Source of the DNA: Oasisia sp. SBJ-2009
Lineage: Eukaryota > Annelida > Polychaeta > Sabellida > Siboglinidae
NCBI GenBank assembly: GCA_964017155.1
Contig: OZ024867.1
Coordinates: forward strand, 22,609,520 to 22,673,519
Length of the DNA stretch: 64,000 nt
Direction of reading: 5' to 3'
Within the stretch, counting starts at the first letter, position 1. Every line of letters begins with the position of its first letter. Shown one piece after another: positions 31,533-42,066 of this stretch. A program made the position numbers and the translations under genes. The notes beneath the pieces were generated by a model. It had not been told where the DNA came from and made no database searches. It worked only from the letters and a program-made list of their open reading frames with translations.

Positions 31533-34381
31533 TCAATTACGAGGTCTGTATTGTCCCATAGCGTCCTCTTCACGCCCTAGTTGTAGTACTCTGACCAATA
31601 ACGCACGGCTAGACTTCCCGTCTCTCGCGGTCTGTGCCAGACGCAGCATTTCTTGTGCGTGGGCGAGGATACCTTCCTCCATAACGACCAGTTGGCCCCA
31701 GTACCACTCCTTGTCCCACTCAGCCCGCCTCAGAAGTCGTTCCAGTGCTCTCCTGTAGGCAGCCACATGGCGCTCCCAGTACACGACTCGGTCGGGAGGG
31801 TCAGGTTCCTCCCCGGGCAGTCGTTGTACTTCCAGTCTACAACACGACACAAGAAACTTGAACACAAACAGTCACCTCTTTCTGTACTAACCCACGTGAC
31901 ACGTGTAATTCGCTGTGACCATCAACAAACTGTGTTGCTGTTGTACTCACTCTGACAACTGCACCCGTTCCTGCCCTTGGGGTGTGTTCCAGTGTACTGT
32001 CCATCTGATTAGGTTGGCACAGGACTCCGACAGATAGTTGTTTCTGAGTCTACAACACATACGTAGGTGATGACACCTGTCGTTAGTAGTAGATAAATTA
32101 GTTTAAATTTTAATAAAATCGAAATAAACCATTTAATCTAAAGTAGTAATATTACTTATTCTAACCAGATTATATGATAGAGACACTAAATTTGACATTT
32201 TGTCTTATTTTTCGACATAGGGTGGGCATACATTTTGAAACGATTGATAGAAAGGAGTTCCCTGAAGCTTGGTAGCAGATGTAAAAGAAATAATGTTTCA
32301 ATTTTGAAACCATATTTGATGTCCACATCTCAGGAGGGGTCATTCACTGGCCGTGGGCACAGAGGTCCAGGATAATTACTCTGATTAAGATAAATGTTGT
32401 ACTTTATTAAGCCAAGGTGGTAACATTTCATACCGGTAGACAATAAGTCGTGGTAAGTCCCAGACGGCTTCTGTCACTTTGCAAGCTCCGAAGTCTCCGA
32501 TGGAGTTAGACTGCAAACTGTCACCAGAACGTCATCAATGATGTGAACTGTGTACACTGTAGCATGGGCCTTTACAGCCGGGTGACAAGTGACAGGGACA
32601 CAATATACGATTAATATTACTAACACTGTCAGTTTATTTTAATGATGACTGTTTTGTACACGTGTTTGTTTGAACGTGTTTTGTCACAGAGTTTATTTGT
32701 ACAGTTACTGTAGTATTCAGTACTCACTCGATTTCCATTAACCTCTTTAGGGTCTGTAGTGCAGACGCCAACTCAATGACGTCCTCGTCTTTGAGTCCAC
32801 ATGCACCCAGACTGTTGACAAACACAGATGAATTTATTTAAGGCTGAACAGTTTTTGTTTCGTCATCATCAGCATATCACTCAAACTAAATAATTACTAA
32901 TATCACAGCAACCTGGTTGTCACTATGTATTACGTGATACATTTGTCTGATTTTTATATTCCAGATGGATTGATAATTGTCAATAGATAACAATAAAATA
33001 TGTCAAGATATTAACGTCATCATAAATTACATTTCACCTGTGGGGACATCAAATAAGACATTATTAATTTAGTGTATTGTAATCAACATGCCTGATTTCT
33101 TCTAAGTGGGTCAATTCCTCCAAACTTCTAGCTAGTGCTGTTGCAAAACGCCGGTCTTTGAATGCTTTGCTGTTGTCGAGTCTAAAAGAAAAAGGACACA
33201 CGTATAAATTACACAATTAGACTTAAAATATTTCAGTTAATATAACACATCATGTATCCACACCAGATCTGATCCACACTACCTATTCAACAGAGTGGTA
33301 GAACAGAGTAATTCCTGGGATGCCTAATTAATAACTTCCCAGGATGGGATTGGCATAACGAACTGTTTAAACCAAACTGCCAAAATGTATCACTTTATGA
33401 CAAATCCCGAAACAAAGTTGATGACTTTGGCCTTATTCAAATTATACATGAACCAAACAAGGGGAGATAATACTCTGGACATAATGATAACGAACAATCC
33501 TACTAACATAAACCGAACAGAGGTACTACCAGGAATTTCATACCATGACTGTTTCTAGTCTAGACGTAAACCCAATAAAAGATAAACAGAAACTTAGAAA
33601 CATTCCCCCTTTCAATAAGGCAGACGGGGGAAATTTCAGACAAAAAATGAAAGAAGTAAACAAAACATTTAAAAATTGCTATGAACAAAACAGTGCAAAT
33701 ACATTATGGTGTATATTTCAGGATACCATTGTCAAAGGAACTGACGCTTCCATCCCATCCAGAATGACAAAACGTAGGGATGGATACCCTTGGATCACGC
33801 ACTGAAGAAACGTATGGGAAAAAGGGATAGAATGTACAAAAATCACAAGCATACTCCAAAATACAAACACCTAGAAAGAACTACAATTAAAATTTGCCTA
33901 GTTGAACTATCTAAATGAGATTGTCCCCTCTACTGGTGATGGTTTGAAAGTTTGGACTTTCATGAAAGGCTGCAGTACAGACCACACACACCAATCAGAC
34001 AAAATGGAATCCTAAATCCAAACCCCATAGCCAAAGCAGAGATACTCAATCAACAGTTTCAGCTAGTCATTACAGATGAACAATCTCTAAATCCCTAGAA
34101 ACCAATCTATACTATTCAACTCTACCAGAAATGCCAGATATATAAATTACAGAAACCGGTGTACTAAAACCTCTGCAAAATATTAAACCCTATAAAGCTC
34201 AAGGACCAGATAACATCCACCCAAGAATTCTAAAAAAGTTGGCTGTTGAAATTGCATTCTATTTAAAATGGGAATTAGTAAGACATGCACTGCACAAAAT
34301 CACTACCTCAAGTGTGTGAGCTTTGTTAGTCCTCTTAGCCCACCAGCCAGTTCGGTTCCACGGATACTGCAGTCATTCATT
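31533..34381 (-). CDS. LRR exons and C-terminal tail of the NLR-like gene
   Basis: Four exons of 75, 90, 84 and 99 bp, all phase 2 to 2, encode one leucine-rich repeat each (for example [20 protein letters not shown] and [19 protein letters not shown]). One repeat per exon with constant phase is the pattern of ribonuclease-inhibitor-type LRRs and allows exon gain or loss. The exon ending at 33092 uses a GC donor (AATCAG|GCATGT). The last exon (31836-31533) is not LRR: it encodes about 101 residues rich in Arg, Glu and Trp ([29 protein letters not shown]) ending at TGA 31535-31533. I do not recognise this tail. Confidence 0.85.
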
Positions 34382-40300: not shown

Positions 40301-42066
40301 ATGCCATATTGGAGTGATCAGCAGTTTGAATATAATCGATACTTGATCAGTTACAAAGGCGATTGTGCAATGAAATGTACACTTACTTTCTATTGTGTAA
40401 CTCCACATATGATACAAATGTATACATGTGCGTCTATTAGAAAACAAACAAATAGTTGAAATACAAATACATTGTTCATATCTTTAAAAAGTTTAAAGTA
40501 TAGGTGCACCATGATATTGTTGTTACACTATTCACCTGCCGATTGTTCTTATTACAAAATATTTCAACAATGTGTACCTGCTGAAGTTTCACAACAGCTT
40601 GCATGGCGCCAGCATTGGTTCTGAGCAGCGTGGGATCTCTAAGCAACGTCGTCATCGTCTTGATGTAGTCCTTCAACTCAGTTTCTGTCAGCTTGAAACC
40701 GGCGGAGTTGAACATTCTCTCTCGAATTTGTTTGACCTGTGTCATAGAAAACACATCTAGCAACAACTGATCCTTGAATAAATCATATTTCCTGTGCCTA
40801 CTCTGCTGTTGCGCATCGTACTGTGTTGCACTCTTTAAAACGATTATTAATTATGTGGTATCCCCAGTGATTGTCATTCATTCATCTGACGACAAACTGG
40901 TGACAACAGTTTCAGTATTATCACAATGTTTTTGATCGTAAAACGGTTGTCGTCATCGCATATTGTAACTCGAATATGCAATTATTCAAGACACCTATAA
41001 CACCAGCACGGAAACAATTATATTTGTATATTCAATTACATTATCAATTTATTTATATCAAATTATATCAAAGTAACAATTCTTGCAAACCAGAATAAAC
41101 TTTCATATGCCATAGTAGTTGTTTAACATGTTTGAAGTCAATGCAATAGCGTACCGACAGATGTATGGGATTACAAGATTGCACATGACATTTGAGAATA
41201 AAAACAAAGCGCTACTTGCCTCCTCAAACGACTGCCGACTCGAGATGCAACCGGAGAACAATTGACAGTTGAGGACCAGCTGCACCAGTGCGAAGGTGTC
41301 GCCTTCTCCGGCCATCAACTCGCCTTCACCATAACTCGTGAACACTTTAGCGATCTCCCACGGATCGCTGTCCCATTTGGACGTGTCCGAATGTGTCCAA
41401 CATGGGACTGCGTGGGGAGTGACCTGGGCGAGGATCTCTTGTTTCCAGTTGCTGTGTCGTGTCGTGCATACTGAGCACTCATTGCCTACCCTGGTGAATA
41501 CACTCGTTGTTGTCATATAATGTCAAGTTTGCATGCAGTGCACGTCACGTCAGAACAGAATAAAGCAGTGTTAATGTATTCGACTGCATTCCTTTTGTCG
41601 TTGTAAAATGTATTGAATATGTCCAACTGCTGTCACTATCTGAGTATTATTCTTAAAAAGAAAGTGTTTATCCAAACTATAACAATAAACAGATAGCTTG
41701 CTAATCTGAATCTGCATGATATAAAATCCCAAAACTGAAGTGTAATTTAATGTAAACAAATTTACTTCGTACAGGCAATAAAACATGCTTTACTCAATTA
41801 CAAACAGAAAACTGAGCAAGTTGATGACAAACTTGTTACCAATGTATGTTCATTACACCAAGAAAAACATAAGGTCTTAGAAGATATACATACTGACAGT
41901 TGATATCACATGGCTGGCGTGGAAACGTTCGATGTAACGATCGATGATAATTCGTTATCTTGTCATTGCACAACTCGTATATGCCTTCCGCTGTACAAAT
42001 CAAGGCCAGACCCGCTTTCACCCAGTTGACGTATTCAACGTCCTGGAAGCGGTCGGCCCCAGCCAT
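31533..42066 (-). CDS. NLR-like protein: DUF4559/CXorf38-like, coiled coil, NACHT, LRR
   Basis: Thirteen coding exons join with consistent phases into 1112 codons plus stop: 42066-41894, 41490-41220, 40736-40578, 39939-39826, 39274-39154, 38676-38602, 38151-38056, 37751-36074, 34381-34307, 33181-33092, 32811-32728, 32049-31951 and 31836-31533. Domain order by residue is DUF4559-like with a HEPN-like helix pair (1 to about 201), Gln-rich coiled-coil linker (202-336), NACHT ATPase and helical/winged-helix region (about 425-895), four LRRs (896-1011), and a charged tail (1012-1112). In the NLR family NACHT drives nucleotide-dependent oligomerisation and LRRs sense ligands, so this is probably a cytosolic innate immune receptor. 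The ATG at 42066 starts the DUF4559-like domain and sits in an exon with an upstream acceptor (42077), so a 5' untranslated exon must exist. Exon limits are inferred by eye; missed small exons are possible. Confidence 0.88.
33290..34275 (+). mobile_element. Broken CR1/Jockey-like LINE fragment in an NLR intron
   Basis: Translated pieces in shifting frames resemble a LINE: the end of the endonuclease ([14 protein letters not shown], then [11 protein letters not shown] near 33520), a linker (33545-33805 open), and the start of the reverse transcriptase ([17 protein letters not shown] near 34190-34240). Both ends are missing and there are many stops. It lies antisense to the NLR-like gene between two LRR exons and ends about 30 bp from the exon at 34307. 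Confidence 0.75.
34382..36073 (-). other. Intron between NACHT and first LRR exon, with tandem duplication
   Basis: A 1.7-kb intron. It contains two adjacent copies of a roughly 108-bp unit at 34903-35110 (ATTGTAAATGGTTTGCGTCTA ... CACTCATTGATTCAGTTGAA). An open frame at 35219-35512 on + has no recognised domain. Confidence 0.6.
36074..37751 (-). CDS. NACHT exon of the NLR-like gene
   Basis: One 1678-bp exon encodes residues 337-895. The Walker A box is GQAGVGKST at about 434-442, and the Walker B-type segment is [11 protein letters not shown] at about 507-517. The usual LDGLDE is thus DGYEE, keeping the Asp and a Glu pair. A sensor-type VTCRSHG follows. The C-terminal half carries the helical and winged-helix region, with [10 protein letters not shown] and [17 protein letters not shown], like the FIHLTFQEFLAA segment of vertebrate NLRs. 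The exon is flanked by TTTTTCAG| and a perfect GTAAGT donor. Confidence 0.95.
37807..37862. repeat. (TA)n microsatellite in an NLR intron
   Basis: TA dinucleotides close to the 5' side of the NACHT exon. Confidence 0.95.
39002..39110. repeat. (TA)n microsatellite in an NLR intron
   Basis: A long TA run with one ACATA interruption, between the exons at 38602-38676 and 39154-39274. Confidence 0.95.

Follow-up and report, generated by a model that had tools for sequence, protein, structure and literature searches.

Within a 64,000-nucleotide stretch of the genome of the vestimentiferan annelid Oasisia sp. SBJ-2009 (contig OZ024867.1, positions 22,609,520 to 22,673,519; hereafter the window, with positions counted from its first letter), we describe an NLR gene, probably for an immune receptor of a deep-sea tubeworm, on the minus strand, running from 42066 (ATG) to 31533 (stop end), whose product starts with a DUF4559/CXorf38-type, predicted HEPN head and continues into a NACHT ATPase and leucine-rich repeat (LRR)-like units. 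Its exons were set by splice sites and then joined, giving 13 coding exons, 3339 nt and 1112 codons. We consider it reasonably probable that the gene is a member of a DUF4559(HEPN)-NACHT family acting as a STAND-type switch, whose head would bind RNA or partners and would not cut RNA. The architecture is already known; the broken catalytic motif of the head is the one point worth following.

Profile searches with Pfam gave two strong matches on the encoded protein: DUF4559 (PF15112) at residues 6-280 (E 9.1e-30; 104.6 bits, cut-off 27; profile positions 1-297 of 305) and NACHT at residues 430-591 (E 5.9e-23; 82 bits, cut-off 26.7), the latter with a Walker A motif at residue 434. An earlier interpretation made from the letters alone (the sequence-only reading) had named the N-terminus as DUF4559/CXorf38-like, and the first of these matches bears this out. 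NLRC4_HD2, NOD2_WH and LRR_4 (E 0.026) were matched below the Pfam cut-offs. A sequence search of the PDB recovered 33 distinct sequences at E <=0.001, 30 of which are named NLRP; the matches fall within residues 331-810, including NLRP1 over residues 410-671 (E 3.6e-19) and NLRP3 over residues 365-777 (E 1.5e-17). The same reading had placed LRRs after NACHT; NACHT stands, but the LRR part of the protein appears short and weak, with LRR_4 below its cut-off. For the C-terminal tail, which it had left unassigned, Pfam gave no match at any E up to 1 over the last 100 residues. Pfam reported no death-fold domain in the protein, and the DZIP3/hRUL138-like HEPN family (PF18738) is absent among the 12 Pfam families matching at E up to 1. 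The coding exons and motif sites are listed below; we take GQAGVGKS to be the Walker A and ILDGYEE the Walker B motif.

41894..42066, minus strand: exon 1, residues 1-57; ATG, first part of DUF4559, and two Cys (Cys53, Cys57) of the predicted zinc insert
41220..41490, minus strand: exon 2, residues 58-148; middle of DUF4559, with Cys63, Cys66, W89, W97 and W102; GC donor gcaagt
40578..40736, minus strand: exon 3, residues 149-201; predicted HEPN core helices and the broken motif R153-E-R-M-F-N158
40707..40724, minus strand: HEPN motif site, RERMFN where R-N-x-x-x-H is expected
39826..39939, minus strand: exon 4, residues 202-239; helical tail of DUF4559, to which the Lamellibrachia (P0048) and Ridgeia (P0057) proteins align
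39154..39274, minus strand: exon 5, residues 240-279; the DUF4559 match ends here; junction 4|5 backed by Ridgeia P0057
38602..38676, minus strand: exon 6, residues 280-304; linker, placed by phase and splice sites only
38056..38151, minus strand: exon 7, residues 305-336; Gln-rich linker, placed by phase and splice sites, with the codon score in favour of its frame
36074..37751, minus strand: exon 8, residues 337-895; helical linker, NACHT (430-591), winged-helix/HD2-like region and LRR start
37438..37461, minus strand: Walker A, GQAGVGKS, residues 434-441
From residue 510, minus strand: Walker B, ILDGYEE
34307..34381, minus strand: exon 9, residues 896-920; LRR-like unit
33092..33181, minus strand: exon 10, residues 921-950; LRR-like unit; GC donor gcatgt
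32728..32811, minus strand: exon 11, residues 951-978; 84 nt, a single LRR-like unit
31951..32049, minus strand: exon 12, residues 979-1011; final, degenerate LRR-like unit; frame not favoured by the codon score
31533..31836, minus strand: exon 13, residues 1012-1112; Arg/Glu-rich tail of unassigned kind, and stop codon

The CXorf38 family was described by Anantharaman et al. in 2013 (PMC3710099) as a HEPN domain with a zinc ribbon insert, and was listed as active. Our profile comparisons point to the same link between DUF4559 and HEPN independently of that paper: of the 26 DUF4559 proteins in one alignment, 15 are matched by Pfam HEPN_Swt1 at E <=10, the best of them at E 4.5e-5, and its match to the Lamellibrachia satsuma protein LSAT2_000973 (P0048; E 0.028, below the cut-off) covers residues 119-183, a span containing that protein's RNKMFH motif. 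The sequence-only reading had described separate HEPN-like helices following a CXorf38-like region; on the evidence of PMC3710099 and of these matches the two are one domain, HEPN being part of DUF4559. AlphaFold predicts the Lamellibrachia head to be nearly all helical (pLDDT 78.9, pTM 0.75). In fold searches no match stood out, HEPN included, and the fold is therefore assigned from sequence profiles and PMC3710099. In the Cys-rich insert, where a zinc site is predicted, Cys57 is conserved in 46/46, Cys63 in 45/45 and Cys66 in 40/45 of the relatives with a letter at the position in question; the conservation of Cys53 depends on the alignment, with 3/45 in the alignment of 55 relatives described below and conservation in two others.

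To describe the catalytic motif, we aligned the head with 55 relatives, 40 of which have letters in both motif columns and 36 of these an Arg in the first. Among the 36, 34 also carry the His, the exceptions being one Mercenaria protein (R) and Ridgeia (Q), and the spacing is x4 in 33 of the 34 and x5 in one (P0060). This count set aside the 15 relatives without letters in one or both columns, together with P0026, P0033, P0035 and P0049, which have V in the Arg column and were judged to be intron read-through; at the exon 2|3 column, two of them (P0033 and P0035) show the divergence expected for such read-through. The 36 comprise 33 clam proteins (28 from Ruditapes and 5 from Mercenaria), Lamellibrachia, Ridgeia and P0060, so that 28 of them come from one species; the His is present in 32 of the 33 clam relatives with Arg. 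The motif reads RNEIFH in Ruditapes, RNKMFH in Lamellibrachia, RRNLFQ in Ridgeia and RERMFN here. The Oasisia head thus keeps Arg153, has Asn in place of the expected His, and shares with Ridgeia the replacement of the Asn that follows the Arg. Based on this comparison the head seems to be without a key residue expected for RNA cutting, and the broken motif, which the sequence-only reading had missed, weakens an RNase reading of it.

The same evidence bears on whether the head could still be an active RNase through other residues, as some HEPN families are active with a substituted His. Arg153 is retained, and PMC3710099 notes a family with D for H in which another conserved H could contribute. 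That paper regards as likely inactive those HEPN domains without any conserved charged or polar residues; since the Arg is kept here, inactivity of this head is our own inference and not an application of that rule. We nonetheless regard continued RNase activity as doubtful, given that Asn and His are both changed here and in Ridgeia, that the His is kept by nearly all relatives with the Arg, and that no R-x4-6-H occurs within residues 1-280, which was the sole check for compensating residues (the pattern occurs at residues 669, 912, 939 and 1028, outside the head). The broken motif could also be read, with the two GC donors, the degenerate LRRs and the transposon remains elsewhere in the window, as the mark of a decaying pseudogene of the DUF4559-NACHT family. 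This we find very improbable: 3339 nt are free of internal stops, Walker A is present, and a JGI protein (P0059) retains exon 1 with only four differences in 58 residues (54 identical), as against 85.7% over the 91 residues (window 41842-42114) across which its similarity extends past the exon into non-coding flanks. AG-GCAAGT, moreover, is a known functional splice donor type.

The favoured reading, a DUF4559-NACHT receptor with a non-cutting head, also depends on all 13 exons belonging to one gene. The single 1112-codon frame proposed by the sequence-only reading could be rebuilt, with the sole stop terminal and phases fitting at 12/12 junctions. All 12 acceptors are AG; donors are GT in 10/12 and GC in 2/12 (after exons 2 and 10). 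Exon 8 lies within a 572-codon open stretch, and exons 9-12 each have phase 2 at both ends. The G+C content is 0.44-0.58 in the 13 exons versus 0.26-0.44 in the 12 introns, each exon lying above its adjoining introns, and a codon-usage score derived from exon 8 prefers the chosen frame to both alternative forward frames in 10 of the remaining 12 exons. Comparison with relatives covers the first part of the gene. The Lamellibrachia protein aligns with exon 1 from its own Met1 and without gaps across junctions 1|2, 2|3 and 3|4, and the Ridgeia piscesae protein NP493_5735g00000 (P0057) without gaps across 3|4 and 4|5, so the chain from exon 1 to exon 5 is backed by homology; over roughly exon 3, tblastn identities are 53% for Lamellibrachia and 48% for Ridgeia. 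P0048 ends 4 residues beyond the exon 4 boundary and P0057 starts just ahead of the exon 3 boundary, and these ends resemble those of automatic models that may have read into introns. The intron after residue 148, at the end of exon 2, is found in relatives as well: among 13 relatives picked by hand for display at the junctions, the nine that are open reading frames (ORFs) resembling clam proteins and apparently reading through an intron all depart from the alignment right at the exon 2|3 column, and the Ruditapes and Mercenaria models P0026, P0031 and P0039 also diverge at this boundary. The position of this intron is therefore probably common to the tubeworm gene and bivalves, which makes the GC donor after exon 2 credible. 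A pyrimidine-rich tract ending in CAG lies directly ahead of the ATG (window 42067-42085, minus strand), and an upstream 5' untranslated exon is possible.

Other points of this reconstruction are weaker. The codon-usage score does not favour the chosen frame in exons 5 and 12, is slightly higher in a reverse frame for exons 2 and 3, and ties for exon 6. For exons 6 and 7, which were placed by splice sites and phase, homology gives no support, and the step from exon 5 to exon 8 is therefore inferred. On the minus strand AATAAA is absent between the NLR stop and 30001, with ATTAAA at 30514 downstream of the stop, and AATAAA is present in several introns of the gene. The LRR core pattern, which is matched three times in residues 881-1040 (shuffles have a mean of 0.26, and 7/5000 reach three), is matched three times more elsewhere in the same protein. 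Some of these points would fit two adjoining genes, a CXorf38-like gene of exons 1-5 or slightly more and a NACHT-LRR gene of its own that begins within exon 8 or ahead of it: the minus strand has AATAAA at 38224 and 38228, in the intron that separates exons 6 and 7, the Lamellibrachia model ends after exon 4, and a NACHT label appears on only one (P0055) of 54 DUF4559 relatives from a search that admitted short proteins only. Yet the Lamellibrachia model, ending 4 residues past an exon boundary as if reading an intron, looks truncated; phases join cleanly across exons 5-8, with the DUF4559 match continuing through exon 5 to residue 280; and DUF4559 is followed by NACHT in a Ruditapes protein and the combination is reported for Corbicula, cnidarians and cephalochordates. 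We therefore judge two genes improbable. We regard exons 1-5 and exon 8 as firm, and a single transcript linking exons 5-8 as likely.

The two closest relatives of the head are both vestimentiferan tubeworm proteins, with identities of 53% over residues 1-240 for Lamellibrachia and 50% over residues 146-279 for Ridgeia; apart from these two and P0059, a short protein matching exon 1, the 54 relatives comprise 51 others, from clams where named, at 21-37%. The source of P0059 appears to be a very close copy, allele or species. The Ridgeia model has sequence of exons 3-5 followed by sequence of exons 1-2, an arrangement that suggests neighbouring tandem copies merged by annotation. Only one protein with both domains emerged from two full-length homology searches (7995 candidates sharing the most words, and 145 candidates, numbers from which the rarity of the fusion cannot be gauged): LOC132713318 of Ruditapes philippinarum (P0001), with DUF4559 (E 9.2e-13) followed by NACHT (E 1.8e-7). 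The sequence-only reading had suggested looking for the same architecture in molluscs, and in this protein the order DUF4559-NACHT recurs. Scans of genome contigs (with residues 1-896 as the query) and of viral contigs (with an alignment as the query) confirmed no relative, and no second copy was found in the window by tblastn with the NLR gene (E 0.1) or with 60 fetched proteins (E 0.001).

The same kind of fusion has precedents, which differ from the tubeworm gene in several ways. PMC3710099 reported the CXorf38 family joined to NACHT in cnidarians and cephalochordates, and also to DEATH, with a possible defence role. These proteins share with ours a CXorf38-type HEPN head, a Cys-rich insert and a NACHT ATPase, but the family is tabled there as active, whereas the motif is broken here, and the available sections of the paper do not mention annelids. 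The suggestion of the sequence-only reading that a CXorf38-NACHT fusion takes part in innate sensing is partly supported, through the match and the fusion, but the HEPN nature, the fusion and the possible defence role were already published in 2013. Nothing in our analysis demonstrates an NLR ancestry of human CXorf38. Because the search behind the single NACHT label among 54 relatives admitted short proteins only, the order in which the two forms arose cannot be read from that count. In Dictyostelium, DUF4559 occurs together with B-box and FNIP domains (PMC4554924), a hint that it predates animal NLRs. In the bivalve Corbicula fluminea, DUF4559 is found on 45 of 99 NACHT genes (PMC8298618), which likewise combine DUF4559 and NACHT in a lophotrochozoan; this is a large expansion, and the available sections state neither LRRs nor the motif for the DUF4559 genes. 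The Ruditapes protein has 26% head identity and differs by its intact RNEIFH, extra Cys-rich residues and the lack of any LRR reported by Pfam. DZIP3/hRUL138-like HEPN domains (PF18738) are common on NACHT proteins of cnidarians (PMC8260672) and pearl oyster (PMC9646362), some of which have LRRs; the combination of HEPN and NACHT is alike, but the HEPN family is another one. Vertebrate NLRP and NLRC proteins resemble the tubeworm protein in NACHT, in the winged-helix and HD2-like region (matched below cut-offs) and in LRR-like units, and differ in their death-fold domain.

Among annelids, 20 NLR genes have been counted in Paraescarpia echinospica, 68 in Lamellibrachia luymesi and two in Capitella (PMC8476170), and an NLRP expansion in vestimentiferans was also reported in PMC6862839; the available sections of both papers leave the N-terminal domains unnamed. 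Vestimentiferan NLRs were proposed to act in inflammation during symbiont establishment (PMC8476170), and a metazoan survey placed CARD on an annelid NLRC (PMC11508797). We found no report of DUF4559-NACHT in annelids among the matches listed in the open-licence literature searched. With the Oasisia gene, the pairing of a CXorf38-type HEPN head with a NACHT receptor extends to a vestimentiferan annelid.

By analogy with other NLRs, the C-terminal LRR-like region and tail may keep the protein shut or sense a ligand, and upon sensing the NACHT ATPase would swap ADP for ATP and the proteins would oligomerise. Oligomerisation would cluster the N-terminal DUF4559/HEPN heads, and in relatives with R-N-x-x-x-H these would then cut RNA, either viral or self. 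In the Oasisia copy the head would most likely bind RNA or pair with active relatives, without cutting; we propose this because its motif lacks both the expected His and the Asn next to the Arg, although the Arg is kept. A role as RNA receptors has been proposed for possibly inactive HEPN families of Caenorhabditis (PMC3710099). As a more speculative and rather unlikely extension, the DUF4559-NLRs of symbiont-hosting tubeworms might combine intact RNase heads and catalytically dead receptors in mixed oligomers, the dead copies serving as RNA sensors or brakes, for example in symbiont tolerance. The occurrence of intact and broken motifs among three tubeworm sequences offers a direct and cheap test of cutting versus binding, a question that bears on the possible role of human CXorf38.

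Other elements were also found in the window, where no RNA family was detected at gathering score. Non-LTR retrotransposon remains lie at 5902-9082 on the plus strand, where a reverse transcriptase ORF (PF00078, E 1.5e-20) comes after one for an endonuclease (PF03372, E 4.4e-11). On the minus strand, 58811-60245 holds a MULE-type transposase piece (PF10551, E 4.6e-9) together with a zinc finger of the FLYWCH type (PF04500, E 4.1e-9); Pfam gave no match for 58811-59317. The intron that separates exons 9 and 10 contains, at 33500-34320 on the plus strand, short stretches of ORF that look by eye like a reverse-transcriptase remnant, the piece at 34146-34319 having no Pfam match at E 0.01. Lastly, a tandem array of a 17-base unit occupies 29852-30415, with 33 copies and a higher-order period of 219 bases.

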